Source of the DNA: Pelagibacteraceae bacterium AG-319-F18
Lineage (GTDB): Bacteria > Pseudomonadota > Alphaproteobacteria > Pelagibacterales > Pelagibacteraceae
DNA: 64,000 bases
Assembly: GCA_003283905.1 (NCBI GenBank)
Contig: QBXA01000003.1
Coordinates: 1 to 64,000, forward strand
Reading direction: 5' to 3'
Shown: positions 1 to 16,128 of the stretch, piece after piece
How positions within the stretch are numbered: position 1 is the stretch's first letter
Layout: each line of letters opens with the position of its first letter
The notes under the pieces: generated by a model
Told to the model about the DNA's origin: nothing
The model's database searches: none
Seen by the model: the letters and a program-made list of their open reading frames with translations, nothing else
Made by a program: the position numbers and the translations under genes

Positions 1-832
1 GCTTAACAAATACAGTTGATCCTTCTATCACTAATTGATTAAGAGCAGCTTGACGATCTGCGATATTTGTAATTAAAGCTAATTTTCCTGAATTAAATTT
101 TTCGACTAAATTAATAAACCAATCTGTTGTTTGAAGATCCACTTCGTATGGTGCAGGTCTCTTAAGGCCAATTACATTTTTAACACCTCTTGTTAACCAA
201 TCTTCATGTTTAATTATTGCAATAACAATTTCGGAAATAAGCAGTGTTGCAATCGCTAAATAGTCAGCCCTAAGTCCTAAGGCAACTTTTCCAACTACAA
301 AAGCTAAACCTGCTGCAAAGAAAGCTCCGACTACCCATGAAAAAATAATTGGCAACCCTAAACCTCCCAAAAAACCTGTTTTAGCAGGATTAACTGCTTC
401 AATAGCTTCAATTCCTGGTTCAGCAGTTATTCTAATAATTATAATTCCAGCAACAATAATTGCAGCAATTCCATAAGTTCTTAATTTTGATTTTTCAAAA
501 TTTTTTAAAATGAAACGAATAACTAAAACCATTGCTATAATTAGCCATAAGCACATTAATATATCAAAACCTCCTGCACGCCAGGCTTCTTGAATAGGAT
601 CAACAGATATTAAAACTGCTGCCAACCCCCCAAGAGCAGTGTATCCCATAATTCCAAAGTTAATTAATCCAGCATAACCCCATTGAATATTAGCTCCCAT
701 TGTCATCACTGCAGAAATTAAGCACATATTAAATATTGATAAGGCTATATTCCATGATTGAAAAATTCCTACTAGAATTATTAAAACCATCATTATGCTA
801 TAAGCAGCAATTACATTTAAATTCTTTCTCAC
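1..832 (-). CDS. livM: Liv-type ABC transporter permease, LivM family (partial, runs off left edge)
   Basis: Membrane permease of a branched-chain/polar amino acid type (HAAT) ABC importer. I translated it by hand: 277 codons are present and the C-terminus lies outside the window. Several hydrophobic helices are visible, with LivM-family signatures INFGIMGYTALGG near residue 55 and GLRADYLAIATL further on. The start is a GTG whose last two bases lie in the TGA stop of the upstream LivH gene (GTGA overlap). AAAGGG lies about 8 bases before it as a ribosome binding site. It is the last visible gene of the second Liv set. Substrate unknown. Confidence 0.85.
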   Translation of the reverse strand, partial: MRKNLNVIAAYSIMMVLIILVGIFQSWNIALSIFNMCLISAVMTMGANIQWGYAGLINFGIMGYTALGGLAAVLISVDPIQEAWRAGGFDILMCLWLIIAMVLVIRFILKNFEKSKLRTYGIAAIIVAGIIIIRITAEPGIEAIEAVNPAKTGFLGGLGLPIIFSWVVGAFFAAGLAFVVGKVALGLRADYLAIATLLISEIVIAIIKHEDWLTRGVKNVIGLKRPAPYEVDLQTTDWFINLVEKFNSGKLALITNIADRQAALNQLVIEGSTVFVK

Positions 833-1839
833 AACACTTTCCCTTTAAATATTCCCGAAGGTCTATACAGTAGCACTATGACCAATATTGAAAATGAGAC
901 CGCAAATTTATAATCCGTAGATAAAAGCTGAACCAAGCTTTCAGGCTCCATACTCTCGGGCAAAATATACATAAAGAATTTTTTATAAGCATAAGTTAAA
1001 AATATTTCAGAAAACGCAATAACATATCCTCCTAAAAATGCTCCAAATGGGTTTCCTATTCCTCCCACTATTGCAGCAGCAAATATTGGAAGCATATTAT
1101 TAAAGTAAGTGAAAGGCTTAAAGCTTTTATCTAATCCATACAAAACTCCCCCTATTGTTGCTAAAATTCCAGCTATTATCCAAGTAATCATAACAATTCT
1201 TTTTGGATCAATTCCTGAAAGCAATGCCAAGTCTTCATTATCAGAATAAGCTTTCATACTTTTTCCAGTTTTCGTTTTATTTAAAAACCAAAATAACAAT
1301 GAAACTATTACGATAGTTACAAATATAGTTAACACTTGTGTAGACTTAATAGCCAAACCTTCATTTAGACCTGTCATTTCTTTAAATTCTCTTGCTTTAA
1401 TAATAAATTTTTGTCCATCAAAGAACCTTTGGTCTGCTGGTCCAATTATAATCCTTACTACTGCTTGAGTTACAAACATTACACCAATACTTACCATAGC
1501 AAGTTGAACTGGAGGGCTTTTGTTTACTCTATAATATCTAAAAACAAACTTATCGATGAAAAGCATGTAAGCAATCATAAACATAATTGCAAATGGAATT
1601 GCTACTAGTGCCGTGGGCAAAACTCCCAATGAAAAACCTAATGATTGCAGATACCATGTAAATAAAATTGTAACCATTGTTCCAAATGACATCATGTCTC
1701 CTGTTGCAAAGTTAGCAAATCTTAAAATACCATAAATTAATGTAACAAAAATTGCACCAAGTGCTAATTGAGATCCATAAGATAGTGCAGGAATAAATAT
1801 ATAATTTAATAAAAGTATAATTGAATTCAAAATATCCAT
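829..1839 (-). CDS. livH: Liv-type ABC transporter permease, LivH family
   Basis: Inner-membrane permease that should pair with the LivM protein encoded just downstream to form the channel of an amino acid-type ABC importer. The sequence is mostly hydrophobic helices and carries the family's early motif RFANFATGD, the counterpart of NxAHGE in LivH. I place the start at the ATG at 1839, with AGGTGG 5 bases upstream and a single base after the LivF stop; a GTG at 1848 in the same frame is the alternative and would overlap LivF by 8 bases. About 336 residues, slightly longer than typical LivH. The transported substrate cannot be read from the sequence. Confidence 0.88.
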   Translation of the reverse strand: MDILNSIILLLNYIFIPALSYGSQLALGAIFVTLIYGILRFANFATGDMMSFGTMVTILFTWYLQSLGFSLGVLPTALVAIPFAIMFMIAYMLFIDKFVFRYYRVNKSPPVQLAMVSIGVMFVTQAVVRIIIGPADQRFFDGQKFIIKAREFKEMTGLNEGLAIKSTQVLTIFVTIVIVSLLFWFLNKTKTGKSMKAYSDNEDLALLSGIDPKRIVMITWIIAGILATIGGVLYGLDKSFKPFTYFNNMLPIFAAAIVGGIGNPFGAFLGGYVIAFSEIFLTYAYKKFFMYILPESMEPESLVQLLSTDYKFAVSFSILVIVLLYRPSGIFKGKVL

Positions 1840-1840
1840 A

Positions 1841-2548
1841 TCATCCACCTAAAAAAGAGCTTCTTACTCTTGGATTGTTTAATAATTCTTGACCAGTGCC
1901 TGAATAACGATTTTCTCCAGTTACTAAGACATATCCTCTATCAGAAATATTTAAAGCTTGTTTAGCATTTTGCTCTACCATTAAAATTGCAACATTAGTT
2001 CTTTTAACTTTTACTATGTGATCAAATAATTCATCCATAACGATAGGAGAAACTCCAGCTGTAGGCTCGTCTAACATCAATACGGTTGGTTTAATCATCA
2101 AAGCCCTACCCAAAGCAACCTGTTGTCTTTGACCACCAGATAATTCACCAACTAATTGAGATCTTTTTTCTTTTAAGACAGGAAATAAATTATAAATTTC
2201 TTCTATTGTATCTTTAATTTCGTCATTAATAAGAAAGGCACCCATTTCTAAATTTTCCTCAACAGTCATTCCTGCAAAAACATTTTTTGTTTGTGGTACA
2301 AAAGAAATTCCTTTTTTAACTCTATCCTGAGGAGATAATTTTGAGATATCTTCACCATCAATTTTTACTGATCCTGATTTTAAATTAAGAAGACCCAACA
2401 TAGCTTTCATCGCTGTAGATTTTCCTGCTCCATTTGGTCCAAGAATTGAAACTATTTCACCTTTATCAACATCTACTGTACAAGAATTTATGATATCAGG
2501 CCCATTACCATAACCACCTGTCATTCCAATTCCTTCAAAATAAGCCAT
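1841..2548 (-). CDS. livF: Liv-type ABC transporter ATPase, LivF family
   Basis: Cytoplasmic ATPase of the second Liv transporter, 235 residues, the usual LivF length. It shows Walker A GPNGAGKST near residue 38, the Q-loop region FVPQTKNVF, the ABC signature LSGGQRQQ near 136, Walker B VLMLDEPTAG near 157 and the switch region VEQNA. The LivF-type ending with FLGG is present. Its ATG shares one base with the TAA of livG (TAATG), indicating translational coupling, and the next gene starts one base after its stop. No substrate-binding protein for this set is in the window. Confidence 0.92.
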   Translation of the reverse strand: MAYFEGIGMTGGYGNGPDIINSCTVDVDKGEIVSILGPNGAGKSTAMKAMLGLLNLKSGSVKIDGEDISKLSPQDRVKKGISFVPQTKNVFAGMTVEENLEMGAFLINDEIKDTIEEIYNLFPVLKEKRSQLVGELSGGQRQQVALGRALMIKPTVLMLDEPTAGVSPIVMDELFDHIVKVKRTNVAILMVEQNAKQALNISDRGYVLVTGENRYSGTGQELLNNPRVRSSFLGG

Positions 2549-3336
2549 TAATTTGCACCCTTAAGTTTTGAACCTCTGCCCAAGTAACTTTCTATTACTT
2601 TTTCATCTTTTTTGGCATCTTCAACCGATCCTTCAAATAAAACTGAACCTTCGGCCATTACAATAACAGGATCACACAATCTACCAATGAAATCCATGTC
2701 ATGTTCAATCATACAGAATGTGTACCCTTTCTCTTTATTAAGTTTTTCAATTGCAGTTCCAAGATCTTTAAGTAAAGTTCGGTTAACACCAGCACCTACC
2801 TCATCAAGTAATACTAATTTAGCATCCACCATCATAGTTCTGCCAAGCTCTAATAGTTTTTTTTGTCCACCTGATAAATTTCCAGCTAGTTCGTTTGATA
2901 AATGTCCTAGATTTAAAAAATCTACAACTTCTTTTGCTTTTTCCTTTACAGTAACTTCCTCTTCAGCAACTAGTTTTGGTTTTAATAATGCTGTCATTAA
3001 TTTTTCACCAGATTGATTTCCAGGGACCATCATCAAATTTTCTAGTACAGATAAATTTGAAAATTCATGTGCAATTTGAAAAGTTCTAAGCAAGCCTTTT
3101 GAAAATAATTCATAAGATGGAACATCGGTAATATTTTCTTGATCAAAAGTTACATTACCACTTGATGATTTTAAATTACCAGCAATTAAATTAAACAAAG
3201 TAGTTTTACCAGATCCGTTGGGGCCAATAATTCCTGTTATAGTTCCTCTTTTAACATTTAGAGAACAATCCGAAACAGCAGCTAATCCACCAAAATATTT
3301 AGATAGATTGTTTATTTCTAAAATATTTCCAGACAT
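2548..3336 (-). CDS. livG: Liv-type ABC transporter ATPase, LivG family
   Basis: The second ATPase partner of this importer, 262 residues. Walker A GPNGSGKTT lies near residue 37, the signature LSGGQKK near 153 and the H-loop IEHDMDF near 215, all LivG-type. The Walker B segment reads LLDEVGAG, with valine where most LivG proteins have proline; the catalytic DE is intact, so I expect it to be active. It starts 5 bases after the ProC-like gene ends, so the reductase and this transporter are probably one transcript. Confidence 0.92.
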   Translation of the reverse strand: MSGNILEINNLSKYFGGLAAVSDCSLNVKRGTITGIIGPNGSGKTTLFNLIAGNLKSSSGNVTFDQENITDVPSYELFSKGLLRTFQIAHEFSNLSVLENLMMVPGNQSGEKLMTALLKPKLVAEEEVTVKEKAKEVVDFLNLGHLSNELAGNLSGGQKKLLELGRTMMVDAKLVLLDEVGAGVNRTLLKDLGTAIEKLNKEKGYTFCMIEHDMDFIGRLCDPVIVMAEGSVLFEGSVEDAKKDEKVIESYLGRGSKLKGAN

Positions 3337-3341
3337 TTAAT

Positions 3342-4109
3342 TTATTTATTAAGTCTTTTGTGAATAATATTTAATGTCTTTTCTAATGATTTATAAAATC
3401 CTGCTTTAGTTAATTCTCTTACACCTTGCTCGTTAAGACCTTTAGGAGTTTGGGAATCTTTTACTAAATGTTTTAAATCTTTTTTTGAATTAACAACTGC
3501 GTCTTCTGACAAAGCCAGAAATAAAGATGTAATATATTGTTGAGCATTATTTTTTTTAACTCCACGCTTAACTAACCAATTAGTCATTACTCTTAACAAT
3601 TCATAAAACGGTGCCATCATTCCAGAAGTAGACCAAAAATTGATAGATAATTTTTCTTTTTTAATCTCTACAGTAGTTCCTAATTGATTAAAGAATTTTT
3701 TTACTTTTAAATTAGGTGGGCAAATAGGCACTGGTCCTTTTCTTAAGGATATTGGTGGCAAGGGTATTGCTCTCACAATTTTTGCTTTAACTTTAATAGC
3801 TTTTTTTAATTGGGATAAAGTTATTGTCGAAATAAAACTAATAATAGTTTGTCTAGACTTAAATTTTAAATCTTTAATAATCCTTTCACCTACTGTTGGT
3901 GTAACCGATAAAAATACCCAATCACATTTATCAATTATTTGCTGATTATCTTTAGCAATAATTATCTTTTTAAATTTTCTTCTTAAAGTTTGGGCAATTT
4001 TTTTATTTCTTTGGGAAATTATAATTTTTTTACATTTAATTTTAGATGTACAGATTCCAGTAATTACTGAAGATGCAATTTTTCCTGTACCGATAAATCC
4101 TAAATTCAT
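3342..4109 (-). CDS. Divergent pyrroline-5-carboxylate reductase (ProC)-like oxidoreductase
   Basis: A 255-residue NAD(P)-dependent reductase of the ProC fold. The N-terminal Rossmann motif GFIGTGKIASSV starts at residue 4. The positions that normally carry the ProC motifs are altered: SVTP replaces AVKP, RAIPLPP replaces RxMPNTP near residue 114, and TPKGLNEQG replaces SPGGTTE near 222. Classical ProC makes proline from pyrroline-5-carboxylate; the changed substrate-side motifs argue that this paralogue may use another cyclic imine or related substrate. It sits between glaH and a Liv transporter, which suggests amino acid catabolism. Fold assignment is firm, substrate unknown. Confidence 0.7.
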   Translation of the reverse strand: MNLGFIGTGKIASSVITGICTSKIKCKKIIISQRNKKIAQTLRRKFKKIIIAKDNQQIIDKCDWVFLSVTPTVGERIIKDLKFKSRQTIISFISTITLSQLKKAIKVKAKIVRAIPLPPISLRKGPVPICPPNLKVKKFFNQLGTTVEIKKEKLSINFWSTSGMMAPFYELLRVMTNWLVKRGVKKNNAQQYITSLFLALSEDAVVNSKKDLKHLVKDSQTPKGLNEQGVRELTKAGFYKSLEKTLNIIHKRLNK

Positions 4110-4142
4110 AAATTTTGATTACTTTATATTGAATATATTGAA

Positions 4143-5054
4143 TTAATTAATAAAAAAAGAACCTCTAATTCTTAACAATTCTCTACTTAAATCCTGGTTT
4201 TCCTTAAAAGGTTTTCTTCCATGTAGCCAGAAATAATTATTAGCCATTATAGACCTTCCAACAGGTAATTTTGTGATAATTTTATTTTTACTTTCCTCCA
4301 AACCGTCTGACAATCTTTGTAAAAAATTTCCCTGATTCATATTTTTTGGTTCTGGAAACTGATCTATATAAGATATTTTTGATCTACCTTTTTCATCAGA
4401 TGAAAAAACAGGGTGTTCAACTTTATAATCTACATTTTTACTTTTTGGCGATCCCCATGTAAAATTTTGTTTACCTACTGGGTCATTAAATAAATCCTCA
4501 CAGTGCTCCCAATCATCAAGATGCAACATTGTAGTTTCACCACCCTCTACATTTTGTTCATTTATTTTAGTCATAATCAACCAATCAGTTACTTCTTTTA
4601 CATAAGTTCCATCTGTGTGCAGGTCCATGTTTCTATAGGCTTTTCTTAAATATGAGTCACTTTTATCCTCATGTTTAACTTCAAACCTCGCATAGTAGTT
4701 GCCAGTCATTGAATCATGATTTGGAATTCCAATCAAATGAGCAATGGCAGTAGAAAGTTTTACTAAAAATTTATCATTAATCTTTGATGAGATATTTTTA
4801 GGACCAATTGTAAAACATCCTGTAGATCTATCTCTTAATATCTTATTCATTAATTCACTTAACTTATTATTAGTTAAATCATCTAAACTTTTTGCAATAG
4901 TAAATCTAGTAAATGGTTTTAGTTCCAATGCTGTTAAATCAAATTTATTAAAAGGAAAAATTAATTTTTTTATGATCTCATCATCTAAATTAATATTAAT
5001 TATTCGTTTTGATTTTTCATGTTCTTGTATTTCAAGACCAGCTATATTTTGCAT
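4143..5054 (-). CDS. glaH: Glutarate 2-hydroxylase (CsiD/GlaH family Fe(II)/2-oxoglutarate dioxygenase)
   Basis: GlaH hydroxylates glutarate to L-2-hydroxyglutarate with 2-oxoglutarate and Fe(II), a step in lysine-to-succinate breakdown in E. coli. The 303-residue protein matches GlaH over nearly its whole length by eye: AIAHLIG, YYARF, DSYLR, LHTDGTYV, LHLDDWEH, SKNV, HPVF, YIDQF and FWLHGR all recur. The likely iron ligands are H146 and D148 (HTD) and H278 (LHGR); the C-terminal RELLRIRG holds candidate 2-oxoglutarate-binding arginines. The usual partner LhgO is not adjacent. The gene lies between azlD and the ProC-like reductase, inside a run of amino acid transport genes. Confidence 0.88.
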   Translation of the reverse strand: MQNIAGLEIQEHEKSKRIININLDDEIIKKLIFPFNKFDLTALELKPFTRFTIAKSLDDLTNNKLSELMNKILRDRSTGCFTIGPKNISSKINDKFLVKLSTAIAHLIGIPNHDSMTGNYYARFEVKHEDKSDSYLRKAYRNMDLHTDGTYVKEVTDWLIMTKINEQNVEGGETTMLHLDDWEHCEDLFNDPVGKQNFTWGSPKSKNVDYKVEHPVFSSDEKGRSKISYIDQFPEPKNMNQGNFLQRLSDGLEESKNKIITKLPVGRSIMANNYFWLHGRKPFKENQDLSRELLRIRGSFFIN

Positions 5055-5094: not shown

Positions 5095-5418
5095 TTAAAA
5101 ATAATTATTTAAAATTGCCATACATACAGCAGAGAAAATAGTTGGATATACGTAGTTTTTTTTTGAAACAAAAAAAACAATTAAAGACAAAATTACAACA
5201 GCAAATCTACTCATGTAGCTAGCATCTGACAAAACTCCTACAGGAAAAATAATAGTTCTAGCTATTAAGGCTGCTAAAGTCGCATAAGCTAAACAATTAA
5301 ACCATTTAAATAATTTTGATGTTTCTTTTATTCCTTCCGAGCTTACTGCACCTAAAAATCTTGATAGAAAAGTTGCAAATGAAGTCACAAGAATTGCATA
5401 AACTATATTAGCTGACAT
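5095..5418 (-). CDS. azlD: AzlD-type small subunit of a branched-chain amino acid exporter
   Basis: A 107-residue membrane protein with about four hydrophobic segments, the normal size and pattern for AzlD. It overlaps the end of the AzlC gene by 11 bases, the standard arrangement for this two-protein system, in which AzlC and AzlD together export branched-chain and related amino acids. Its place between a Liv importer and glaH suggests control of internal amino acid levels. The assignment rests on size, topology and the AzlC partner rather than on sharp motifs. Confidence 0.8.
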   Translation of the reverse strand: MSANIVYAILVTSFATFLSRFLGAVSSEGIKETSKLFKWFNCLAYATLAALIARTIIFPVGVLSDASYMSRFAVVILSLIVFFVSKKNYVYPTIFSAVCMAILNNYF

Positions 5419-6112
5419 TTAACTCTCCTACAAAGTATGCAATTGTACCACCAACTACTCCACCTAATAAAATTGACCATTCTGGTGATAAAAAATAAAA
5501 AATTGGTCCTAATATTGCTCCAAGTAAAACTGATAAGGAAATTTGTATAGTTTTAGAAGCACCAACCATCATACATAAAAAATAAATAGGATTTAAAATT
5601 GCTAATCCCATCATCAAATCTTTATTTAGAAACTCTGAAGAAAAAAAACCAATAAAAGTACCTATTACCGCTATACTCCAAGTAGCACTGCCAATTCCAA
5701 TCCAGTAATCAATTCTTTGCTCTTTTGGTATAGATTTATAGTTACTCTTCATGATTAACCAAGCTGATACAGCAATAAAATGACAGGAAAAATAATATTT
5801 CCACTTAGGCTGATCTTTATGCATCATTAATGGAAACAAAGATACCGCCATCGGATAGAGACGTGCATTAACAAACCAAACAGCTAAAAAAATATTTAAT
5901 AAAGATGCACCCACTAGTAATGACTCGGCCATTACCAAAGATCCAGGTAAAGCATAAGTCAACATTGTAGAGAAAATACTTTCTTGGATATTAAAACCTA
6001 AATTTTTAAGCAAAGCTCCAATTGCAATGAAACAACAGCCTAAAGCTATTGCTGGACTATCATGAGCTAAAATAGATTTATATCCTTTAAAAAAAAATTC
6101 TCTATTAATCAT
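5408..6112 (-). CDS. azlC: AzlC-type large subunit of a branched-chain amino acid exporter
   Basis: A 234-residue inner-membrane protein, multi-helix, of the AzlC family. Recognisable family features are the early small-residue helix with SPAIALGCCF, the segment NARLYPMAVSL near residue 82 and WKYYFSCHFIAVSAW near 104. It should act with AzlD, encoded directly downstream with an 11-base overlap, as a proton-coupled amino acid exporter. Its start shares one base with the stop of the upstream LivF gene, so importer and exporter genes are translationally linked. Confidence 0.85.
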   Translation of the reverse strand: MINREFFFKGYKSILAHDSPAIALGCCFIAIGALLKNLGFNIQESIFSTMLTYALPGSLVMAESLLVGASLLNIFLAVWFVNARLYPMAVSLFPLMMHKDQPKWKYYFSCHFIAVSAWLIMKSNYKSIPKEQRIDYWIGIGSATWSIAVIGTFIGFFSSEFLNKDLMMGLAILNPIYFLCMMVGASKTIQISLSVLLGAILGPIFYFLSPEWSILLGGVVGGTIAYFVGELNVS

Positions 6113-6897
6113 TAACCACCAAGGAATAGTCTACCTACATCAGAGTTTTGAAGTAAATCTTCCCCTTTTCCAGCTATTGCTGTTTGTCCAGATACTAAAA
6201 CATATCCGATGTCTGCAAATTCTAATCCTTTTTTGGCATTTTGTTCAACTAATATAATAGTTTTTTTTTCATTCTCTTGAAGATCTCTTAAAATTTCAAA
6301 AACCATATCAATATATCTTGGCTCTAAACCAATCGAAGGTTCGTCAACCAATAATATAGATGGTTTCATAACAAGTGCTCTTGATATTTCTAACAATCTT
6401 CTTTCTCCACCAGATAGAACTTTTGCTGGTTGAGTTCTTCTATTTCTTAATCTTTCATATTTTTCAAAAATTCTCTCTGCTTCCTCATAAGACTCATCTG
6501 TTTTATCTTTTGTGTAACCTCCCATTAATAAATTTTCCTCTACTGTCATGTCGGGAAAAACAGAGTTGTCTTGCAATATATACGCGATCCCAACTGATTT
6601 TAATTTTTCTGCTGGAGATAAATTTGTAATTTCTTTTCCTTCTATATCTATCTGACCTGAAAATATATTTGTGAAACCATATATTGAATGAAGAATAGTT
6701 GATTTGCCTGCACCATTAGGTCCTATCAAACAAAGTGACTGAGCCTTATTCACAAATAAATCAAAATTATGAAGAATTTCCATCTTTCCATAACCTGCAT
6801 TTAAGTCTTTAATTGTTAAATGTATTTCATCAGGAGATAATTTTTTCAAATCATCTACGGTTGGAGCTTTACCTAAAACTTCATATTGATTTGACAT
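6112..6897 (-). CDS. livF: Liv-type ABC transporter ATPase, LivF family (upstream set)
   Basis: ATPase of the complete Liv transporter, 261 residues. It carries an N-terminal extension of about 25 residues (to DEIHLTIKDL) not seen in the second LivF at 1841-2548. Walker A GPNGAGKST is near residue 60, signature LSGGERR near 163, Walker B LLVDEPSIGL near 182, followed by VEQNAKKGL and the terminal FLGG. It starts one base inside the stop of livG and shares one base with azlC. The acidic/lysine-rich extension has no function I can assign. Confidence 0.92.
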   Translation of the reverse strand: MSNQYEVLGKAPTVDDLKKLSPDEIHLTIKDLNAGYGKMEILHNFDLFVNKAQSLCLIGPNGAGKSTILHSIYGFTNIFSGQIDIEGKEITNLSPAEKLKSVGIAYILQDNSVFPDMTVEENLLMGGYTKDKTDESYEEAERIFEKYERLRNRRTQPAKVLSGGERRLLEISRALVMKPSILLVDEPSIGLEPRYIDMVFEILRDLQENEKKTIILVEQNAKKGLEFADIGYVLVSGQTAIAGKGEDLLQNSDVGRLFLGG

Positions 6898-7637
6898 TAT
6901 TGTGCTCCTAAATAAGCATCAATCACACGCTTATCATTTTTAATTTCTTCTGGTGAACCATTTGCAAGCATTTTTCCATGTGCTAAACAAAAAATGTTTT
7001 CTGCTAATTGCATGATTACCCTCATATTGTGTTCGATTACTAAAAGTGTTATCCCAAAATCTTGATTCACTTTAATTAATCTATCAATAATTCCATTTAT
7101 TAGTGTTGGATTAATTCCGGCTGTGGGTTCATCTAATAGCAACATTTCAGGTTCATTCATTAATGCCATTGCAAGTTCTAATAACTTTTGTTGGCCAAAG
7201 GAAAGGTCTCCTGCTCTAAGTTTTCTTTTTTGAAATAACCCTACAAAATTCAGTAAATTTTCAGCTTTTTCTGTTAATTCCTGTGGAATTTTTGAAAATA
7301 TTTTCATTAAATTTGCGTCACTACCTTTGTGACTAATAAGCATATTTTCTATACAGTTAAGTTTTCCATAAATTCTCGTTTGCTGAAATGTTCTTAGCAA
7401 GCCTAGTTTAGCAATAACTGGAACTGGGAGTTCTGAAACTTCTTTTGCATTAAATTTTATTGATCCATTGTCTATTGGATAAGTTCCAACTATCGAGTTA
7501 AATAAAGTAGTTTTACCTGATCCATTAGGACCAATTAATCCAACTATTTTGCCTTTTTCAACTTTCATCGAAATGTCAACGTTAGCTTTAACACCGCCAA
7601 ATGATTTGTTTACATTATTGACTTCTAAAATGCTCAT
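6897..7637 (-). CDS. livG: Liv-type ABC transporter ATPase, LivG family (upstream set)
   Basis: 246-residue ATPase partner of the LivF protein encoded directly downstream. Walker A GPNGSGKTT near residue 37, LSFGQQKLLEL as the signature near 144 (F replaces the usual G in LSGGQ), Walker B LLLDEPTAGI near 165 and IEHNMRV near 201. The LSFGQ form occurs within the LivG family, so I do not read it as inactivation. It overlaps livM by 4 bases. Confidence 0.92.
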   Translation of the reverse strand: MSILEVNNVNKSFGGVKANVDISMKVEKGKIVGLIGPNGSGKTTLFNSIVGTYPIDNGSIKFNAKEVSELPVPVIAKLGLLRTFQQTRIYGKLNCIENMLISHKGSDANLMKIFSKIPQELTEKAENLLNFVGLFQKRKLRAGDLSFGQQKLLELAMALMNEPEMLLLDEPTAGINPTLINGIIDRLIKVNQDFGITLLVIEHNMRVIMQLAENIFCLAHGKMLANGSPEEIKNDKRVIDAYLGAQ

Positions 7638-8686
7638 TTAAGTTCTACCTGTGCTTTACGATCTTTTTCATCAACTATTTCGCCAAATCTCTCTGGATAT
7701 TTTTCTCTTAACCATCCCATAATTCCTTCTGGGAAATAAATTACAATTACAACAATTAAAACTCCTAGAGCAACATACTGCCAACCTAAGAAGAAAGTCC
7801 AAAAACCCTCTTTAAATATATGAAATACAGTTGCACCAATAATTGGACCCCAAAGTGTTCCTTTGCCACCCAATATTGCCATCAAAACCATAAATACTCC
7901 CATCTCTCTTCCATCAAATGCAACATCCGTAGAATCAATGTATCCAACTAAGCCTCCCATTATTCCACCAGCCAAACCACAAAAGAAAGCTGATATCATC
8001 CAGCCAATAATTTTATATTTCATTGTTTCAATGCCCATCGCCTCAGCTTTATCCTCATTATCTCTTATTGCATTAAGTATTAATTTAAATCTCGTAGAAT
8101 AAATTGAACGAACTGCAATAAATGTCAGAACTAAAGTAAAGAAACTTAGGAAATAAAAAAACTCCCCTCTTGCCTCTAAACTTCCAATGTTGGGAAAAGG
8201 CGGAGTTGTAAATCCCTGTCCCGCTCCAATTATTTCTATTCCTCCTGAAATTTCACCTGCAGCTACTCCTAAACCTAATGTACAAATTGCAAAATAATGT
8301 CCTCTTAGACCTAAAATAGAATATCCAATCAAACCTGCAACAATAGTTGGAACTACCGCAGCAACAACTAATCCAACAGCCATCCCTTGAAAAAACTGAA
8401 CTGGTGTATGAACAAATGTTTTTTCACCACCGCTTTCAGTCCATTCTGCTAGTGGAAAAAACATACCTACTTGTACAGAAGCACAAAGGTACATTCCAAG
8501 ACCATAGAATAGAATATTACCAAATGAATTATATCCCATCTCACCACCTTGAATGTTCCAAGTTATTGCTAAAACAATTAAGACACAAAGAATTGATAAT
8601 TGAACCTTAAACGCAGGAAATATAAATGGAGCAGCTAATCCAAAAATTAAAATAGCAGCATATAAAATTAAGTTATTTTTACTCAT
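7634..8686 (-). CDS. livM: Liv-type ABC transporter permease, LivM family (upstream set)
   Basis: 350-residue inner-membrane permease with many hydrophobic helices. LivM-family marks include GEMGYNSFGN near residue 48, the segment SILGLRGHYFAICTLGLG near 124 and NEDKAEAMGI near 212, the cytoplasmic loop that contacts the ATPases. The C-terminal tail after residue 330 is charged and cytoplasmic. It lies 7 bases after livH and overlaps livG by 4, completing the E. coli-like order livH-livM-livG-livF. Confidence 0.9.
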   Translation of the reverse strand: MSKNNLILYAAILIFGLAAPFIFPAFKVQLSILCVLIVLAITWNIQGGEMGYNSFGNILFYGLGMYLCASVQVGMFFPLAEWTESGGEKTFVHTPVQFFQGMAVGLVVAAVVPTIVAGLIGYSILGLRGHYFAICTLGLGVAAGEISGGIEIIGAGQGFTTPPFPNIGSLEARGEFFYFLSFFTLVLTFIAVRSIYSTRFKLILNAIRDNEDKAEAMGIETMKYKIIGWMISAFFCGLAGGIMGGLVGYIDSTDVAFDGREMGVFMVLMAILGGKGTLWGPIIGATVFHIFKEGFWTFFLGWQYVALGVLIVVIVIYFPEGIMGWLREKYPERFGEIVDEKDRKAQVELK

Positions 8687-8693
8687 TTTTTTA

Positions 8694-9587
8694 TCATTTT
8701 AAATATTCTCTTTTTTTTGATAGTTTAAACCTTCTGTAAACTAGGATTAAAACTAGAAGTAAAAATACTGATCCAATCCTAAATTCTGTTCCTAAAATAT
8801 AATCTGCAAACTCTTCAAATACTCCTAAGCCCATTCCTGACATTGCAACACCAGGTAAATTTCCAAGACCTGCAACAATTACAATCATGAAGGATCTAAT
8901 CGTATAAGGAAGTCCCATATATGGGTGGATTGTGAAAGTTATAGATACCAATGCACCAGCAACACCACAAAGAGCAGCATTTATACCAAAAGTAGCTGCA
9001 TAAACTTTTTCTGTATCTACGCCTAAAATCTTTGCAGCTCGTGCATTTTGAGCTGTTGCTCTTATTGCACGACCAAGCTTAGATTTTTTCATGTAAATAA
9101 CTAAGCAAACTGCAAATAAAATACTTATAAATGCAGAAAATATTTTTGAATTTGGCAATACAACATTGCTATCAAACAACATAGTTGTTCCGTAACCAGA
9201 GTTTGCAAGAACTACGTCTGCACCAAATGCAAAGTTCATTAATTGCATGAAAAGAATACTTATTCCAAAAGTCGCTAAAATAGAGATAAACAAATCTCTA
9301 TCCACCACTTTATTAATTACAAGTTTATAAATTCCTATACCAACAAAATACATTATGATTGGAGCAACAATAACTCCCCATGCAGGATGTATTCCATAAA
9401 GATACATAAAGTATGCAATGTATCCTCCTAAAATAACCAGATCGCCTTGCGCAATATTTATGATATTCATTACTCCCCATTGAAGAGCCATACCATAAGC
9501 AATTAATGCAAATAAAATTCCAAGAAGAATACCGTCCAAACAAGCTTGAACAGTTATCATTGGGTATTGAAATACAAGAAAATCCAT
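8694..9587 (-). CDS. livH: Liv-type ABC transporter permease, LivH family (upstream set)
   Basis: 297-residue permease; pairs with the LivM protein encoded next. Marks of the family are WGVMNIINIAQGD near residue 32 and the coupling-loop segment LGRAIRATAQNARAAKILGVD near 171, including the alanine-rich stretch that contacts the ATPase. It is the first gene after the binding-protein gene, from which it is separated by a GC-rich hairpin, so its mRNA level is probably lower than that of the binding protein. Confidence 0.9.
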   Translation of the reverse strand: MDFLVFQYPMITVQACLDGILLGILFALIAYGMALQWGVMNIINIAQGDLVILGGYIAYFMYLYGIHPAWGVIVAPIIMYFVGIGIYKLVINKVVDRDLFISILATFGISILFMQLMNFAFGADVVLANSGYGTTMLFDSNVVLPNSKIFSAFISILFAVCLVIYMKKSKLGRAIRATAQNARAAKILGVDTEKVYAATFGINAALCGVAGALVSITFTIHPYMGLPYTIRSFMIVIVAGLGNLPGVAMSGMGLGVFEEFADYILGTEFRIGSVFLLLVLILVYRRFKLSKKREYLK

Positions 9588-9606: not shown

Positions 9607-9636
9607 AAAAAAAAGCCCCCTATTACTAGGGGGCTT
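9607..9636 (-). terminator. Terminator-like hairpin between binding protein and livH
   Basis: Read on the minus strand, an 8-base stem AAGCCCCC pairs with GGGGGCTT around an 8-base loop and is followed by a run of eight T. It lies just after the binding-protein stop codon and before livH. It has the form of an intrinsic terminator; in this position it is likely leaky, and it may also protect the binding-protein mRNA from 3' decay. Confidence 0.8.
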
Positions 9637-9648
9637 GATTATTTTATT

Positions 9649-10887
9649 TTATCTTTCAGACCACTTTGGCACAGGATGTATCAACTTAGCTGAAGCCCAT
9701 TTTAGAGGAGCAACAACTTTGTTTTCACATTTTCCTGCAGCATCACACATAACTTGGAATAATACCATTGGCTTAGAGACATTTTGACCGCCTGGAGCAA
9801 ATTTTATATTTCCATAAAAAGTTTGCATATCAGTAGCAGCAAGAGCATCTCTTACTTTCTTTTGATCGAAAGAATTTGCTCTTTCAAAAGCATCTTTGAA
9901 AACCAATAAAGCAGCTGAAGATTCTGCTGCTTGATATGGAGGTGCATATCCAAACATTTTGTTAAAATCTGCATCATATGTCATACCATCTTTAAAGAAG
10001 TTATCTTTATAAGTTAGTGTTTTGTGCCATTGAGAAGCACATAAAGCATATTGAGAATTTTTACCATGTTGTTTAGATAGTTTCGCAGCATCACAGTGTG
10101 TCATTGCTAACATTGGAACATCAACTTTCATCTCAGCGATTTGTCTGATTGCAGTTAATGCACCTTTAGTATGACCCGATACTACTAAAACATCTGGCTT
10201 CATTTGTTTAACTTTTACTAAAGTTGCTGCCATGTCATTTAGTTCTTTTGGCAATTTATCGTCAATAACCTTTGTAGAACCAGTTTCTTTAATAGCATCC
10301 AAAATACCTAATCTAACATCTTGTGAAAAAGCATCTTGTTCAAAAGCCATTGCAACTTTAACTCCTTTGCCGCCATTTAATTCAACAGCAGTTTTAATTG
10401 CTACATCAAGATATAAGTTAGCTGGAGCCAATACTGCAAAGAGATATTTGTATCCTTTTGTAAACAAAGATCTAGAAGCACCATTCGCTTCTACCATTGG
10501 AACACCATATTTTTCGGTAACTGGAGCCATAGCTTTAGTTAATCCTGAGCTGTATGGTCCAAGCATGAATTGAACACCATCTTGGCTTATTAATCTTTCT
10601 GCTAGTTGAGCTGCTCTTTTTGGGTTTGATTCATCGTCATAGTATATGATTTCAAACTTATAAGTTTTTCCACCAACTTTAATACCACCCATGCTATTAA
10701 TTCTATCAACGGCCATGTTATAACCATTTTGAGTATGAACACCATTAGAAGAGTATTTACCAGTTAGTGAAACAGCAGCACCTAAAACAATCTTATTTCC
10801 AACAACTTTTGCAAAAGAAGTTGCTGACATAGAGAATAAAATTGCTACTGCAGAAATAAAACTTAATATTATTTTAGTTAATCTCAT
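9649..10887 (-). CDS. Periplasmic substrate-binding protein of the Liv-type transporter
   Basis: 412-residue binding protein of the LivK / Peripla_BP_6 type. A Sec signal peptide covers residues 1-26 (ends SFA, cleavage before KVVGN). The mature part opens with IVLGAAVSLTGKYSS, typical for this family's ligand site, followed by NGYNMAVDRIN and later YDDESNPKRAAQLAERLI. It captures the solute in the periplasm and delivers it to LivH/LivM. The ligand could be a branched-chain or other amino acid, an amide or a related compound; I cannot choose. A ribosome binding site AAAGGAAA precedes the ATG and a promoter candidate lies about 60 bases upstream. Confidence 0.9.
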   Translation of the reverse strand: MRLTKIILSFISAVAILFSMSATSFAKVVGNKIVLGAAVSLTGKYSSNGVHTQNGYNMAVDRINSMGGIKVGGKTYKFEIIYYDDESNPKRAAQLAERLISQDGVQFMLGPYSSGLTKAMAPVTEKYGVPMVEANGASRSLFTKGYKYLFAVLAPANLYLDVAIKTAVELNGGKGVKVAMAFEQDAFSQDVRLGILDAIKETGSTKVIDDKLPKELNDMAATLVKVKQMKPDVLVVSGHTKGALTAIRQIAEMKVDVPMLAMTHCDAAKLSKQHGKNSQYALCASQWHKTLTYKDNFFKDGMTYDADFNKMFGYAPPYQAAESSAALLVFKDAFERANSFDQKKVRDALAATDMQTFYGNIKFAPGGQNVSKPMVLFQVMCDAAGKCENKVVAPLKWASAKLIHPVPKWSER

Positions 10888-10989: not shown

Positions 10990-11604
10990 TTAATATTGCT
11001 GAGTAATTAAGATAATTATTGCTATTGTAATTAAAACACACGCTGAAATTGTGTTTATTATTTTAGGATTAGCTTTTAACCAAACTATTAATTTATTTGC
11101 AAGAATTGCATAAGCAATAAGAGATAAAAAATCTAAAACAACATAAGTTGTAATTAAAATTAAGAATTGAATAATATAATTAGAATTAAAATCTATAAAC
11201 TGAGGAAAAATAAAAGGAAAAAACATCCAAGCCTTTGGACTTGTTCCAGCAACTAAAAATCCATCTTTAAAAAAAGAAAATAAACTTTTTGATGAAATAT
11301 TATCCGAACTTACATCCTTAGGTTTTGATTTGTAAAGATCGTACGCAAGATATAAAATATAAATTACCCCAACCCATTTAAAAATATTTAAAAAGTTTGG
11401 ATTATCAGAAAAAAAAGAGCCTATTACAAAAATTACTAAGGTTGCTTGAATAAAGTTTGCAGTAATATCTCCTAATGCGGTCCAAATACATTTTTTAACA
11501 CCATAATTCATAGAATAAGAAATGATCACAATTCGAGGTGTTCCAGGAGTTATAAATAAAAACAGTATTATTTGTAAAAATAGGAAATAATTTAAGGGGT
11601 ACAT
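10990..11604 (-). CDS. LysE/RhtB family amino acid exporter
   Basis: 204-residue inner-membrane protein with about six hydrophobic segments. The family hallmark is the N-terminal ITPGTPRIVIISYSMNYG, corresponding to PGP-x-x-x-V and G-x-x-x-G of LysE/RhtB proteins, and later GTSPKAWMFF near residue 118, which matches the second conserved block. It should export an amino acid or a derivative. Its start codon lies 9 bases after an inverted repeat that could fold in its leader; no clear ribosome binding site is visible. Confidence 0.85.
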   Translation of the reverse strand: MYPLNYFLFLQIILFLFITPGTPRIVIISYSMNYGVKKCIWTALGDITANFIQATLVIFVIGSFFSDNPNFLNIFKWVGVIYILYLAYDLYKSKPKDVSSDNISSKSLFSFFKDGFLVAGTSPKAWMFFPFIFPQFIDFNSNYIIQFLILITTYVVLDFLSLIAYAILANKLIVWLKANPKIINTISACVLITIAIIILITQQY

Positions 11605-11724: not shown

Positions 11725-12021
11725 ATGAAAAAAAAAAGTCACACCCTCATAACTAAGGTTAAAAATCCAGAGCCAAATGTAGATGACCCAGATTGGATAA
11801 TTTGGGCTGCCTGGGCTGATCGGATCACTTTTGAGGAAATAGAAAAAAAGACTGGTAAGACAGAATCTGAAGTTATTAAGGTTATGCGAAGATCTGTAAA
11901 TCCTACTTCCTTCAGATTGTGGAGAAAAAGAATAAATCAAAAAAGTATAAAACACAGAAAAAAATTTGAATATTCTAGAAAAGAAATAACTAGTAAAATT
12001 AAAAAAGGTGATTATTTATAA
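11725..12021 (+). CDS. DUF2805 / TIGR03643 family small protein
   Basis: 98-residue basic protein of unknown function. It shows the family pattern: a helix-turn-helix-like stretch IIWAAWADRITFEEIEKKTG (residues 25-44), then SEVIKVMRR and SFRLWRKR, then KHRKKF. The arrangement resembles a small DNA-binding domain, but its role is not established. Only three bases separate it from grxC, so the two are co-transcribed; the pairing suggests a redox-related setting but proves nothing. Confidence 0.8.
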   Translation: MKKKSHTLITKVKNPEPNVDDPDWIIWAAWADRITFEEIEKKTGKTESEVIKVMRRSVNPTSFRLWRKRINQKSIKHRKKFEYSRKEITSKIKKGDYL

Positions 12022-12281: not shown

Positions 12282-13010
12282 TTAATCTATAACTGTTGCA
12301 GTAACGTCAGGTTTTGCTCCATATAAACCTTGTGAAGCTCCAATAGTAGCCGCACAACCTCCTGATGTCCCAACATAACCTAAAGCACCAGATGTTCCAA
12401 ATGCAAGTTTAAGCGAAGGTATTTTTCCAGTTTTAAGCTGTATTGCTTTTGTAAAAGCTCCTCTATATTGAAAATATTCGTCAGTAGCATTTACTACTCC
12501 ATCGGCCTGGGCTGTTCCAGTTCCATCACCTGCACTAATACTATTTATTTCATCTCCTAAACCGCTACCAACCATTGCCATATACATTGTGACTTCAGCT
12601 AAATCACCAGAAGAAGTGCTTCCAACTGTATTTTTAGCAATATTACCACTATTAGATACCGTGTAGCAAGTTTGTGAGCCATCGCTAACAGAACCTTTAA
12701 TGGTAACTGCTCTTTTCATTGTAACTTGATAGTAAGTATAAGTTTTACCAAACGCAAGTTTTGTAAAATCTCCATAACTTGCTGCGGCAACTCCTGCTGA
12801 AGTACTTGCAATATCTATTAATCCTGAGTCACCTGAGCCTACTACTAAAGGATTTAAACAGTTGGCAGTAGTACTGCCAGTTTCACACAATTCTAAATAT
12901 GTCATTGTAATTTTGTAAGAAGTTGCTTCGCCTGCAGTTTGCACAGCAAAAGCACTTTTTGTAATTAATATTGAGAATATCAAAAATAGTATTAATTTAA
13001 TTTTTTTCAT
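12282..13010 (-). CDS. Exported protein of unknown function, partner of the inverse autotransporter barrel
   Basis: 242 residues with a clear Sec signal peptide (residues 1-22, lysines then a hydrophobic core, ending SAFA before VQTAGE). The mature part is rich in Gly, Ser, Thr and Ala, predicted mainly beta, with four cysteines (near residues 42, 50, 118 and 219) that could form two disulfides. Segments such as SYKITMTYLELCETG and TYTYYQVTMKRA look like beta strands. I recognise no domain. The gene begins 2 bases after the stop of the barrel gene, so the two are almost certainly co-translated; it may be a cell-surface or periplasmic partner, or the cargo, of that barrel. Confidence 0.75.
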   Translation of the reverse strand: MKKIKLILFLIFSILITKSAFAVQTAGEATSYKITMTYLELCETGSTTANCLNPLVVGSGDSGLIDIASTSAGVAAASYGDFTKLAFGKTYTYYQVTMKRAVTIKGSVSDGSQTCYTVSNSGNIAKNTVGSTSSGDLAEVTMYMAMVGSGLGDEINSISAGDGTGTAQADGVVNATDEYFQYRGAFTKAIQLKTGKIPSLKLAFGTSGALGYVGTSGGCAATIGASQGLYGAKPDVTATVID

Positions 13011-13012
13011 AA

Positions 13013-13855
13013 TTATTTACTTGTTATAATAATTGATCCTTGTACTTCTATAGTCAAATTATTATTTCTTTTAACCTTTTCTTTTAATTTTTTTTGAACA
13101 TTTTCTTTTTCAAATGCCACGTTTGAGAATCCATCTTTCATTGATTTTCCATCTCCTCTAGGGGGATAAACAAAAGTTAATTTAGAAGTAAATTCGTCAT
13201 CTACCCCTGAATTATCACTCATATCATTTTTAAGTTCTAACTGAACAGACGGTGATAAATATGCTTCTAACGCTAAACTATTTCCTTCTGTATCACTAGA
13301 AGCTTTTTCGTTTTCCCATGAATAATTTTCCCAATTAATTTTTGCCCATGGAGCATAAGGTATTTGTGAGGCAAGATTGATTGTATAGCCTGTTAAGACT
13401 TGCTCTTCAGTACTTTTGTGAACTTCCATATTGGTAATTTTATGATAACTATTTGCGGTAAGATCAAGATTGGCACCTTTTAACTCAAAACCAACACTAC
13501 CTCTTTGATGTCCTGCGTTAAAATCATTATCTAAAAATAAATTGACACCTACAACATTAGATTTGTCGTGAGACAATTTTCTATAGCCAAGTCCTATATT
13601 TCCAATTAGTCTATTATGTCCATTTGTTTCTTGAGTATGTAAACTAAACTGAGTAAATAAATTTGAATTGTTAGTTGATTCAATATCCCTCAAAGCTAAA
13701 ATTTCAATATCAGGATTGTCATCTTCATTAATTTGAATTGAAGCCTCTGTTAAACCTTCACCTGGTATTAAATTATTAAAAAATTCTGATACATCTTTTG
13801 CATAAGAATTTGAAAAAAATAATAAAACAAAGATATAAATAAATAATCTTTTCAT
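13013..13855 (-). CDS. Inverse autotransporter (intimin/invasin-type) beta-barrel without a passenger
   Basis: 280 residues. The signal peptide is residues 1-19 (ends SYA before KDVSEF). From about residue 65 the sequence follows the inverse-autotransporter barrel pattern: FTQFSLHTQ, NIGLGYRKL, VGVNLFLDND, HQRGSVGFELKG, LTANSYHKI. It ends with EKVKRNNNLTIEV, which resembles the RNNNIVLEY segment closing the barrel-and-linker region in intimin and invasin. In those proteins a long Ig-like passenger follows; here the protein stops about 10 residues later. It should insert in the outer membrane. An exported protein of unknown function is encoded 2 bases downstream. Confidence 0.78.
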   Translation of the reverse strand: MKRLFIYIFVLLFFSNSYAKDVSEFFNNLIPGEGLTEASIQINEDDNPDIEILALRDIESTNNSNLFTQFSLHTQETNGHNRLIGNIGLGYRKLSHDKSNVVGVNLFLDNDFNAGHQRGSVGFELKGANLDLTANSYHKITNMEVHKSTEEQVLTGYTINLASQIPYAPWAKINWENYSWENEKASSDTEGNSLALEAYLSPSVQLELKNDMSDNSGVDDEFTSKLTFVYPPRGDGKSMKDGFSNVAFEKENVQKKLKEKVKRNNNLTIEVQGSIIITSK

Positions 13856-14282: not shown

Positions 14283-15233
14283 CTATTTTAAAACTCTTAT
14301 TGGTTTACCATTTACACAAGCTTCTAGATCTTCGATCATTTGATTATAGAAAATATTGTAATTTTCTGCAGTTACGTAACCAATATGTGGGGTTAATAAT
14401 GCATTTGGTAAAAATCTTAATTTATTATTTTCTGGTAAAGGTTCTTTTTCATAAACATCAAGACCAGCTCCCGCAATTACATTTGTTGATAATGCTATAA
14501 TTAAATCATCTTCATTAATAATTGGTCCTCTTGAAGTGTTAATTAAAAATGCTGTTTTTTTCATTTTATCTAGTTCTTTTAATGTAATGCAGTCTTTATA
14601 TCTTTCTCCACCTTGTACGTGGATTGAAACAACATCAGAATTTTGTATCAAATCATCTTTACTGCATGGTAAAACATCAAGTTCTTTACATGTATCTAAA
14701 TTTAGATTTTCACTCCAAGCCATAACTTGCATCCCAAAAGCTTTACCTATTTTAACCACTTGCGACCCTACTCTTCCAAGGCCAATTAAACCTAAAACTT
14801 TACCTTTCAATTCAACACCAATAGTAGTTTGCCAATATCCCTGATACATATTATCAAATTCTTCTTTAAAATTTCTAGCCAAACCTAAAATAAGAGCCCA
14901 AGTTAACTCGGGAGTTGGATTGATATTTATTTCTGTTCCACAAACAATAATTTTTCTTTTTTTTGCAGCCTCAAGATCAATGGATTTATTTCTCAATCCA
15001 CTAGTAATTATAAATTTTAAGTCATTTAAATTATCTATTAAATTTTTCGATATAGGAGTTCTCTCTCTCATAATCAAAAGAGCTTCAAAGTCTGCTAATT
15101 GTTCAATTGTATCAGCCTCATCTAAAAAAGGTTCACTAAAAATTTTAAATTCATATTTTCCTGATAATTTTTCTAAATTTACCAATTGATGAGAAACATT
15201 TTGATAATCGTCTAATATTGCAACTTTAAGCAT
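14283..15233 (-). CDS. D-isomer-specific 2-hydroxyacid dehydrogenase
   Basis: 316 residues from the ATG at 15233, which overlaps the stop of the EamA gene (ATGCTTAA); an upstream ATG at 15284 would extend it back into that gene and adds nothing family-like. The NAD-binding motif GLGRVG is at 151-156. The catalytic triad of the family is present: R235 (NTSRGP), E264 (VYEKEP) and H283 (LTPHIG). It interconverts a 2-oxo acid and a D-2-hydroxy acid; related enzymes include glyoxylate/hydroxypyruvate reductase and phosphoglycerate dehydrogenase, but no regulatory ACT domain is present. Exact substrate unknown. Confidence 0.85.
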   Translation of the reverse strand: MLKVAILDDYQNVSHQLVNLEKLSGKYEFKIFSEPFLDEADTIEQLADFEALLIMRERTPISKNLIDNLNDLKFIITSGLRNKSIDLEAAKKRKIIVCGTEININPTPELTWALILGLARNFKEEFDNMYQGYWQTTIGVELKGKVLGLIGLGRVGSQVVKIGKAFGMQVMAWSENLNLDTCKELDVLPCSKDDLIQNSDVVSIHVQGGERYKDCITLKELDKMKKTAFLINTSRGPIINEDDLIIALSTNVIAGAGLDVYEKEPLPENNKLRFLPNALLTPHIGYVTAENYNIFYNQMIEDLEACVNGKPIRVLK

Positions 15234-16128
15234 TTTTAACTTTCTTATTTGATAATAAAATTCCTGAAATAATAAAACAAGCACCTAAGATATGATAAAA
15301 CATAAATTTTTCATTAAAAAAAATCATGGCCATTATGGCACTTATGATTGGCATCAAATGTAAAAACACACCAGATCGATTTGCTCCTATCATAGATATA
15401 CCTTTAATCCATAATATAAATGAAGCTAAACCAGGAAGCAAAACAACATATGATAAAATTAAAATGAATGGTATATCAAGGTTAATTCTAAAGCCAACTT
15501 GATACTCAATGAAATAAACTGGGATTAAAAAAATTAAACCAAAAGAAATAACTACTTGCAGTAAGCTAATTTGAGACAATTCATATTTTTGTCTTTTTAA
15601 TAAAGTTGAGTATAGCGCCCAAGAAAACATAGCGACTACCATTGTGATATCGCCCTTATTAAAATCTAAATTTTTTAAAATTTGAAAATTAGCTTTAGTA
15701 ATAATGATAGTTACACCTAAAAATGAAAGTATTACACCAATTATTTGAAATACATTTGTTTTTTCGATTTTTAAAATCGATGAAAAAAACATAATCATTA
15801 CTGGAATTGTGGATATCATCAAAACTCCACTTATAACCTGAGTAAAATTTAACGAATAATAAACAATAGAATTAAAAATTGTGATGCTCGTGACACCTAA
15901 AACTATAAATAATTTATAATTTTGAACTATATATTTTTTTTTTTTAATAATTTCAGGAAGAGTAAATGGTGCTAGAATTAACCAAGCAAAAAACCAACGA
16001 TAAAAATTAAGAGAAAATGGAGGCACTTCATAAAGACTTGCAAATTTTCCAACAATAAAATTACCTGCCCAAAAAGTAACTGTTAATAATAAAAAAATAT
16101 AAGCAAGAAAGTTAGATTCTTTTTTCAC
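15226..16128 (-). CDS. EamA/DMT superfamily transporter
   Basis: 300-residue inner-membrane protein with about ten hydrophobic helices in two EamA repeats. The first repeat shows FWAGNFIVGK near residue 20 and NFYRWFFAW near 44; the second begins near residue 155 with MVVAMFSWALYSTL and ends with FFNEKFMFYHILGACFIISG. Such proteins usually export amino acids or other metabolites. It overlaps the dehydrogenase gene by 8 bases and abuts the DadA-like gene, suggesting one unit for amino or oxo acid turnover. Confidence 0.88.
   Translation of the reverse strand: MKKESNFLAYIFLLLTVTFWAGNFIVGKFASLYEVPPFSLNFYRWFFAWLILAPFTLPEIIKKKKYIVQNYKLFIVLGVTSITIFNSIVYYSLNFTQVISGVLMISTIPVMIMFFSSILKIEKTNVFQIIGVILSFLGVTIIITKANFQILKNLDFNKGDITMVVAMFSWALYSTLLKRQKYELSQISLLQVVISFGLIFLIPVYFIEYQVGFRINLDIPFILILSYVVLLPGLASFILWIKGISMIGANRSGVFLHLMPIISAIMAMIFFNEKFMFYHILGACFIISGILLSNKKVKNA

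Follow-up and report, generated by a model that had tools for sequence, protein, structure and literature searches.

We identified a locus in a SAR11 genome at which two gene blocks probably meet. Block A, livKHMGF1-azlCD-glaH, would be an inherited unit for uptake and oxidation of a small compound, and block B would start with a proline-synthesis gene, proC2, followed by a second Liv-type transporter. The window, which is the whole stretch of DNA analysed, comprises 64,000 nucleotides (C3:1-64000) of a genome of 1.13 Mb with a completeness of 79.6%.

Gene content of the locus

Two open reading frames (ORFs) on the minus strand, 3342-4109 and 4143-5054, coincide exactly with the positions given in a sequence-only reading of this DNA, which had placed glaH and a ProC-like reductase gene with a Liv-type ABC gene set on either side; domain profiles and gene order agree with this placement (Table 1). 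All of the top 80 GlaH matches among named genomes come from Pelagibacterales or Pelagibacteraceae (SAR11). A Pfam scan of nine proteins confirmed AzlD, AzlC, LivH1, LivK1, LivH2, LivF2 and the LysE-type protein, and livG1, livF1, livM1, livG2 and livM2 were named by eye and from the conserved gene order. The Liv set of block A is composed of two permeases, two ATPases and a type I binding protein, of which LivH1 and LivK1 were assigned by Pfam and the rest by eye. The livM2 gene of block B is cut at base 1 by the start of the contig. A strong terminator-like hairpin is located in the gap between livK1 and livH1 and may possibly set a high ratio of binding protein to permease.

Table 1. Features of the two gene blocks and their surroundings, listed from upstream to downstream on the minus strand.
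Feature	Position	Strand	Evidence
lysE/rhtB-type exporter beside block A	10990..11604	-	PF01810, 83.3 bits
livK1, periplasmic binding protein, block A	9649..10887	-	PF13458, 169.3 bits
Terminator-like hairpin, livK1/livH1 gap	9613..9636	-	Consensus scan: 10 pairs, 6 of them G-C, then T run
livH1, permease, block A	8694..9587	-	PF02653, 120.2 bits
livM1, permease, block A	7634..8686	-	ORF, conserved order, by eye
livG1, ABC ATPase, block A	6897..7637	-	ORF, conserved order, by eye
livF1, ABC ATPase, block A	6112..6897	-	ORF, conserved order, by eye
azlC, block A	5408..6112	-	PF03591, 78 bits; overlaps azlD, abuts livF1
azlD, small subunit of AzlCD-type amino-acid exporter, block A	5095..5418	-	PF05437, 51.6 bits; adjoins glaH in 80/80 loci
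glaH (csiD family), candidate Fe(II)/2-oxoglutarate-dependent glutarate 2-hydroxylase	4143..5054	-	PF08943, 459 bits; NF002814, 453.5 bits; ligand residues
proC2, PRK06476-type pyrroline-5-carboxylate reductase, start of block B	3342..4109	-	NF005063, 334.8 bits
livG2, ABC ATPase, block B	2548..3336	-	ORF, by eye; adjoins proC2 in 79/79 loci
livF2, ABC ATPase, block B	1841..2548	-	PF00005, 118.9 bits
livH2, permease, block B	829..1848	-	PF02653, 114.3 bits
livM2, permease, block B	2..832	-	Open-ended ORF, by eye

Two secreted-looking ORFs (12282-13855) are found between a small gene (11725-12021) and msrB. They match their counterparts in relatives at about 28-44%, compared to about 74-92% for the flanking lysE, hyp98 and msrB in the relatives shown, which marks a fast-changing spot. 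A gene of the D-2-hydroxyacid dehydrogenase family lies near block A both in this genus (14283-15284 of the window) and in its sister genus (L178:10219-11160).

GlaH and the distribution of block A

The GlaH protein (303 aa) scores 459 bits with the CsiD domain model PF08943 (cut-off 27) and 453.5 bits with the NCBIfam equivalog model for glutarate dioxygenase GlaH (NF002814; cut-off 333), both well above what chance would give. In E. coli CsiD, His160, Asp162 and His292 bind Fe, Arg309 belongs to the 2-oxoglutarate site, and Arg311 and Gly163 bind glutarate, as described in a section of Knorr 2018 (PMC6265302). Using an offset of 14 taken from PDB matches, all six residues (H160, D162, G163, H292, R309, and R311 in E. 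coli numbering) were found in the window GlaH, and all six are among the 63 residues that are invariant in an alignment of 109 proteins. The alignment consists of 101 distinct Pelagibacteraceae proteins, two proteins of the sister genus and six proteins from the same phylum outside the class; rows with fewer than 280 aligned residues or with stops were dropped, and a distant copy from genome G171 was aligned and not counted. At seven positions, the 101 Pelagibacteraceae proteins are consistently different from the other eight; these include Q310 to I, located between the two arginines that act as ligands, and N142 to H. For ten out of ten GlaH pairs, the synonymous difference (0.23-0.66 per site) was much larger than the nonsynonymous difference (0.004-0.083), indicating that glaH is under purifying selection. 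With these scores and ligand residues, the window GlaH is a credible glutarate 2-hydroxylase, for which glutarate would be the substrate. In a midpoint-rooted tree of 40 GlaH rows, in which 31 of the 101 distinct Pelagibacteraceae rows were used and the position of long rows is unsure, the genus and the sister genus are joined with moderate support (85/90), separately from five of the six rows from outside the class.

Block A is largely kept or lost as one. Strong GlaH matches (E < 1e-80) were found in 44 of 73 genomes of the same genus, the own genome included, and in none of 48 genomes of another family; three of these strong matches end at contig ends, and a tally of 108/121 genomes takes in weak, partial matches as well. 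LivK1 (E <= 1e-60) was found in 41/73 and 0/48 genomes, respectively. Both proteins are present in 38 genus genomes, GlaH alone in 6, LivK1 alone in 3 and neither in 26, so that the two are concordant in 64 of the 73 genomes (Fisher p = 9e-11, a value that is not a true probability given the common descent of the genomes and the incompleteness of many). In five of the six genomes with GlaH only (G013, G029, G030, G065, and G068), the contig ends before livK1 is reached. A genuine exception is G007, in which glaH lies about 120 bases from hyp98 and the transporter and azlCD genes are missing between them. The genomes with LivK1 only are G020, in which livF1 directly precedes proC2 and livK1 is kept without azlCD-glaH, G028, and G038, in which the locus is cut at a contig end. 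Further deviations are the lack of azlCD in G066 and the position of glaH on a different contig in G071, where an outer-membrane-like ORF and a pentapeptide-like ORF (by eye) are found between azlD and proC2. Zinc-transporter-like genes and a PQQ-type dehydrogenase-like ORF (by eye; L138:7517-9486) are the neighbours of glaH in G071.

The 80 loci that gave the best GlaH matches are close relatives by construction, and in 72 of them the 13 core genes from livK1 to livM2 are all present in the conserved order. The neighbourhood, whose loss in close relatives the sequence-only reading had named as a ground against its proposal, is thus kept. The sister genus within the same family (G218 and G495) carries a complete lysE-livKHMGF1-azlCD-glaH run with identities to the window of 79-80% (LivK1), 56% (GlaH), and 42-43% (AzlC); neither proC2 nor a second Liv set was found within 18 kb around glaH in these two genomes. 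Downstream of glaH in G218, and overlapping it, is an msrA-like ORF (by eye). The position of lysE upstream of livK1 is found in the sister genus also, and some genomes keep lysE without block A; the lysE/rhtB-type exporter is not strictly linked to block A.

At E <= 1e-30, five GlaH carriers were found in a sample of 385 genomes of the class and eight in a sample of 398 genomes of the phylum. These counts include the own genome and SAR11 relatives, and statements on GlaH outside SAR11 rest on seven genomes. G171, a genome of 6.5 Mb from the same class, has two equally scoring, distant copies of the GlaH family (E 5e-57) near both ends of contig C4, at about 8 kb (L181) and about 557 kb (L169).

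Absence of LhgO and the compound handled by block A

The E. coli csiD(glaH)-lhgO-gab system, as presented in parts of Knorr 2018 (PMC6265302), contains a GlaH from the same family, whose ligand residues for Fe, 2-oxoglutarate and glutarate are the same as those found here. In contrast to E. coli, LhgO was not found in this genus, no gab genes are present at the locus, and a Liv-type ABC importer and AzlCD are found instead. The sequence-only reading had noted the lack of lhgO in the gene run and had proposed to look for it elsewhere in the genome. Neither the window nor the own genome (79.6% complete) was found to contain lhgO: the best own-genome match to the model of L-2-hydroxyglutarate oxidase (LhgO) had an E value of 1.3e-16 and lies in a frame of 811 aa. 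None of the 73 genus genomes had an LhgO match at E <= 1e-20. With the threshold set at E <= 10, the best matches in five genus genomes lay in frames of 810-827 aa and had E values from 3e-17 to 4e-16, and the single-contig genomes G012 and G417 gave no match better than 1e-16 (1.3e-16 in G417). The same model gave partial matches under the cut-off in 41 of the 48 genomes of the other family, and matches above the cut-off (313 and 312 bits), distant from glaH, in both genomes of the sister genus, indicating that the model works within the order. The pattern is explained most simply by a loss of LhgO within this genus. In the sample of 398 genomes, six GlaH genomes fall outside the class, which are probably gammaproteobacteria, and five of these have LhgO, scoring above the cut-off, directly beside glaH. 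No LhgO match better than 2.6e-12 was obtained for the out-of-class, GlaH-positive genome G573, and G171, with its distant GlaH, gave a partial match under the cut-off only. GlaH without LhgO is therefore not unique to SAR11, but the combination holds consistently across this genus. With no LhgO, the glutarate cycle stays open, and this makes a role of the locus in glutarate catabolism less convincing.

It is possible, though less likely than not, that livKHMGF1-azlCD-glaH is an unreported ABC-type system that takes up and oxidises glutarate or a C5 precursor, the L-2-hydroxyglutarate formed being disposed of in this genus by an unrecognised non-LhgO enzyme or by export. In the reading that we favour, the Liv1 ABC importer would bring in glutarate or a small glutarate-yielding compound, and GlaH would hydroxylate glutarate at C2 using 2-oxoglutarate and O2, giving L-2-hydroxyglutarate, succinate and CO2. 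AzlCD might export a by-product or an excess amino acid, and L-2-hydroxyglutarate would in this genus be handled by an enzyme other than LhgO. SAR11 bacteria rank among the most abundant cells of the ocean; if their GlaH makes L-2-hydroxyglutarate without LhgO to remove it, the pathway must be completed by an unknown enzyme, or else GlaH has a different role. The linkage of GlaH to Liv1 points to one particular binding protein as a target for ligand screens.

The sequences of known structure nearest to LivK1 are urea-type and Leu/Ile/Val-type binding proteins (E about 1e-19). Columns of LivK1 were read with a pocket motif that we take to be characteristic of amino-acid binders. F187 and H239 of LivK1 correspond to Tyr in all three aligned proteins (4gnr, 4n0q, and a second SAR11 binding protein). 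At M262-T263, two of the aligned proteins are acidic and the fragment of 4gnr ends before this site; LivK1 has an Asp shortly after it, at position 266, so that the register here is uncertain. F187, H239, T263, and H264 are invariant across 22 LivK1 sequences (21 of 44 distinct rows and the window). An AlphaFold model of LivK1 (22 close relatives) had a mean pLDDT of 52.1, which is too poor for a check of the pocket. The pocket columns appear unlike those of the aligned amino-acid binders and would suit a ligand that lacks an alpha-amino group. SAR11 binding proteins are reportedly the subject of a 2024 paper in Nature. The HTCC1062 homologue of LivK1 is presumably SAR11_1361, judged from the order of locus tags. 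SAR11_1361 is named livJ2 in a passage of PMC5069961.

Uptake and efflux of glutarate alongside its GlaH-dependent use have likewise been described in a bacterium, E. coli, for KgtP and YnfM (parts of PMC12622518), and according to the same source microbial glutarate uptake was unreported before its KgtP work. KgtP is probably proton-coupled (PMC12622518, in part), whereas the candidate importer at the SAR11 locus is an ABC system with a predicted ligand. An ABC importer for glutarate would be new, if shown.

A glutarate 2-hydroxylase within a SAR11 scheme is already known: the legend of Figure 1 in Noell 2021 (PMC8437039) has this enzyme and ygaF in a scheme for polyamines, and passages of the text describe uptake of cadaverine and a likely route through lysine degradation. 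Applied to the present genome, PotABCD would import cadaverine, multifunctional aminotransferases would lead to glutarate, GlaH and a YgaF-like enzyme would act next, and Liv1 and AzlCD would be unrelated amino-acid transporters. We consider this route rather doubtful as an explanation for the locus. The own genome (79.6% complete) has one class III aminotransferase, which is of the ArgD type; this fits the multifunctional-enzyme proposal in the same parts of Noell 2021, the legend of which lists gabT as acetylornithine aminotransferase. With this single ArgD-type enzyme, a dedicated source of glutarate is not evident. Three class III aminotransferase matches were found in G012 and two each in G417, G218, and G495; the second one in G012 is of the AptA type and lies beside a taurine-binding-protein-like ORF (by eye), and the third is partly matched. 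The result for LhgO (0/73) argues against the cadaverine route, as it means that no orthologue of the ygaF step in the scheme as seen in the parts of Noell 2021 was found in the genus at E <= 1e-20. GlaH moreover travels with Liv1, which that scheme does not need. In the portions of open-licence literature covered by searches for SAR11 or Pelagibacter with glutarate, csiD or L-2-hydroxyglutarate, Noell 2021 was the sole relevant paper found, and the module boundaries, the linkage to Liv and AzlCD and the absence of LhgO were not found in this literature, most subscription papers being outside its scope.

It is unlikely that GlaH of this genus shifted to another substrate, brought in by Liv1, a change that would account for how LhgO could be lost. 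Such a shift would agree with the lack of LhgO in this genus and its presence in the sister genus, and with the seven consistent changes in GlaH, Q310 to I and N142 to H included. However, the six ligand residues known from E. coli are invariant and the equivalog score is well over the cut-off; seven changes are few, and their location in the pocket is unsupported by structure.

Replacement of LhgO by another 2-hydroxyacid dehydrogenase, such as a member of the malate/L-lactate dehydrogenase family (Ldh_2), is quite improbable. Some Ldh_2 family members reduce 2-oxoglutarate, and Ldh_2 matches are present in 62 of the 73 genus genomes, with one in the own genome. However, neither of the two Ldh_2 paralogue groups was associated with GlaH (p = 0.79 and 0.15; this test omits the fragments in G017, G050, and G057 and a weak second match in G072), which leaves the family unsupported by co-occurrence as a partner of GlaH. 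Two Ldh_2 proteins that were scanned stayed under every curated cut-off, the closest being that of sulfolactate dehydrogenase. The D-2-hydroxyacid dehydrogenase-family gene at 14283-15284 was dropped as a candidate, as it is present in the GlaH-less loci L121, L123, L125, and L131 too and the family is D-specific.

ProC2 and block B

ProC2 (255 aa) matches the NF005063/PRK06476 model for pyrroline-5-carboxylate reductase over its whole length with 334.8 bits (cut-off 254) and stays under the cut-off of the canonical proC model TIGR00112 (96.7 vs 196.75 bits). Its earlier description as a divergent ProC-like reductase is therefore fair. Compared to PRK06476-type reductases (NF005063), no difference is apparent in this full-length protein above the equivalog cut-off, and only its position beside block A is unusual. 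A search with the proC model (E <= 1e-10) gave exactly one match in 56 of the 73 genus genomes, none of them above the canonical cut-off, and one match in 41 of the 48 genomes of the other family, which was above the cut-off in 35. ProC2 is the only proC match at this threshold in the own genome, which also has proB (present in 62/73 genus genomes overall).

Sixteen genus genomes have ProC2 and lack GlaH. In 11 of these, proC2 is adjacent to livG2, and in 14 it is located at most 1.5 kb from lysE, hyp98 or msrB. Fifteen of the sixteen stretches are without any block A gene (the one in G057 ends just past proC2), and the sixteenth, in G020, has livF1. As ProC2 is kept without block A, is the sole proC match and occurs together with proB, it most likely functions in proline synthesis. 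On the simplest interpretation, ProC2, the only candidate found for a pyrroline-5-carboxylate reductase, would serve as the proline-synthesis enzyme of the genus. Outer-membrane-like proteins, a ROK-type kinase and a tripartite-type transporter (by eye) separate glaH and proC2 in six loci (L092, L139-L141, L143, and L144). The separation of the blocks in distant genomes indicates that A and B behave as separate units sharing one site, and GlaH and ProC2 are probably neighbours by position rather than by pathway.

The sequence-only reading had joined glaH, proC2 and both Liv importers into one catabolic module for lysine, pipecolate or glutarate, in which ProC2 reduces a cyclic imine of the pathway. 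This reading draws on the same-strand run with short gaps, on the adjacency of glaH and proC2 (gap <= 150 bases) in 78 of 79 loci of the best-80 GlaH set of close relatives, on the missed canonical proC cut-off, and on a GlaH-ProC2 correlation (p = 6e-4) that is weaker than that of GlaH with LivK1 and could be caused by uneven genome completeness, but it is highly improbable, as ProC2 occupies the same site in GlaH-less genomes, accompanies proB as the sole proC match, is missing from the 18 kb around glaH in the sister genus, and is separated from glaH by other genes in the six loci mentioned above. In the arrangement with two separate blocks, a second Liv-type binding protein, encoded nearby on the opposite strand in relatives, may serve the Liv transporter of block B.

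The stretch beside proC2 is suggestive of an insertion hotspot. Varied outer-membrane-like proteins of about 215-240 aa (by eye) are encoded beside proC2 in L092, L139, L140, L143, L144, L121, and L125, and a tripartite tricarboxylate-type transporter (by eye) is located between proC2 and glaH in G025 (L139:3716-6694).
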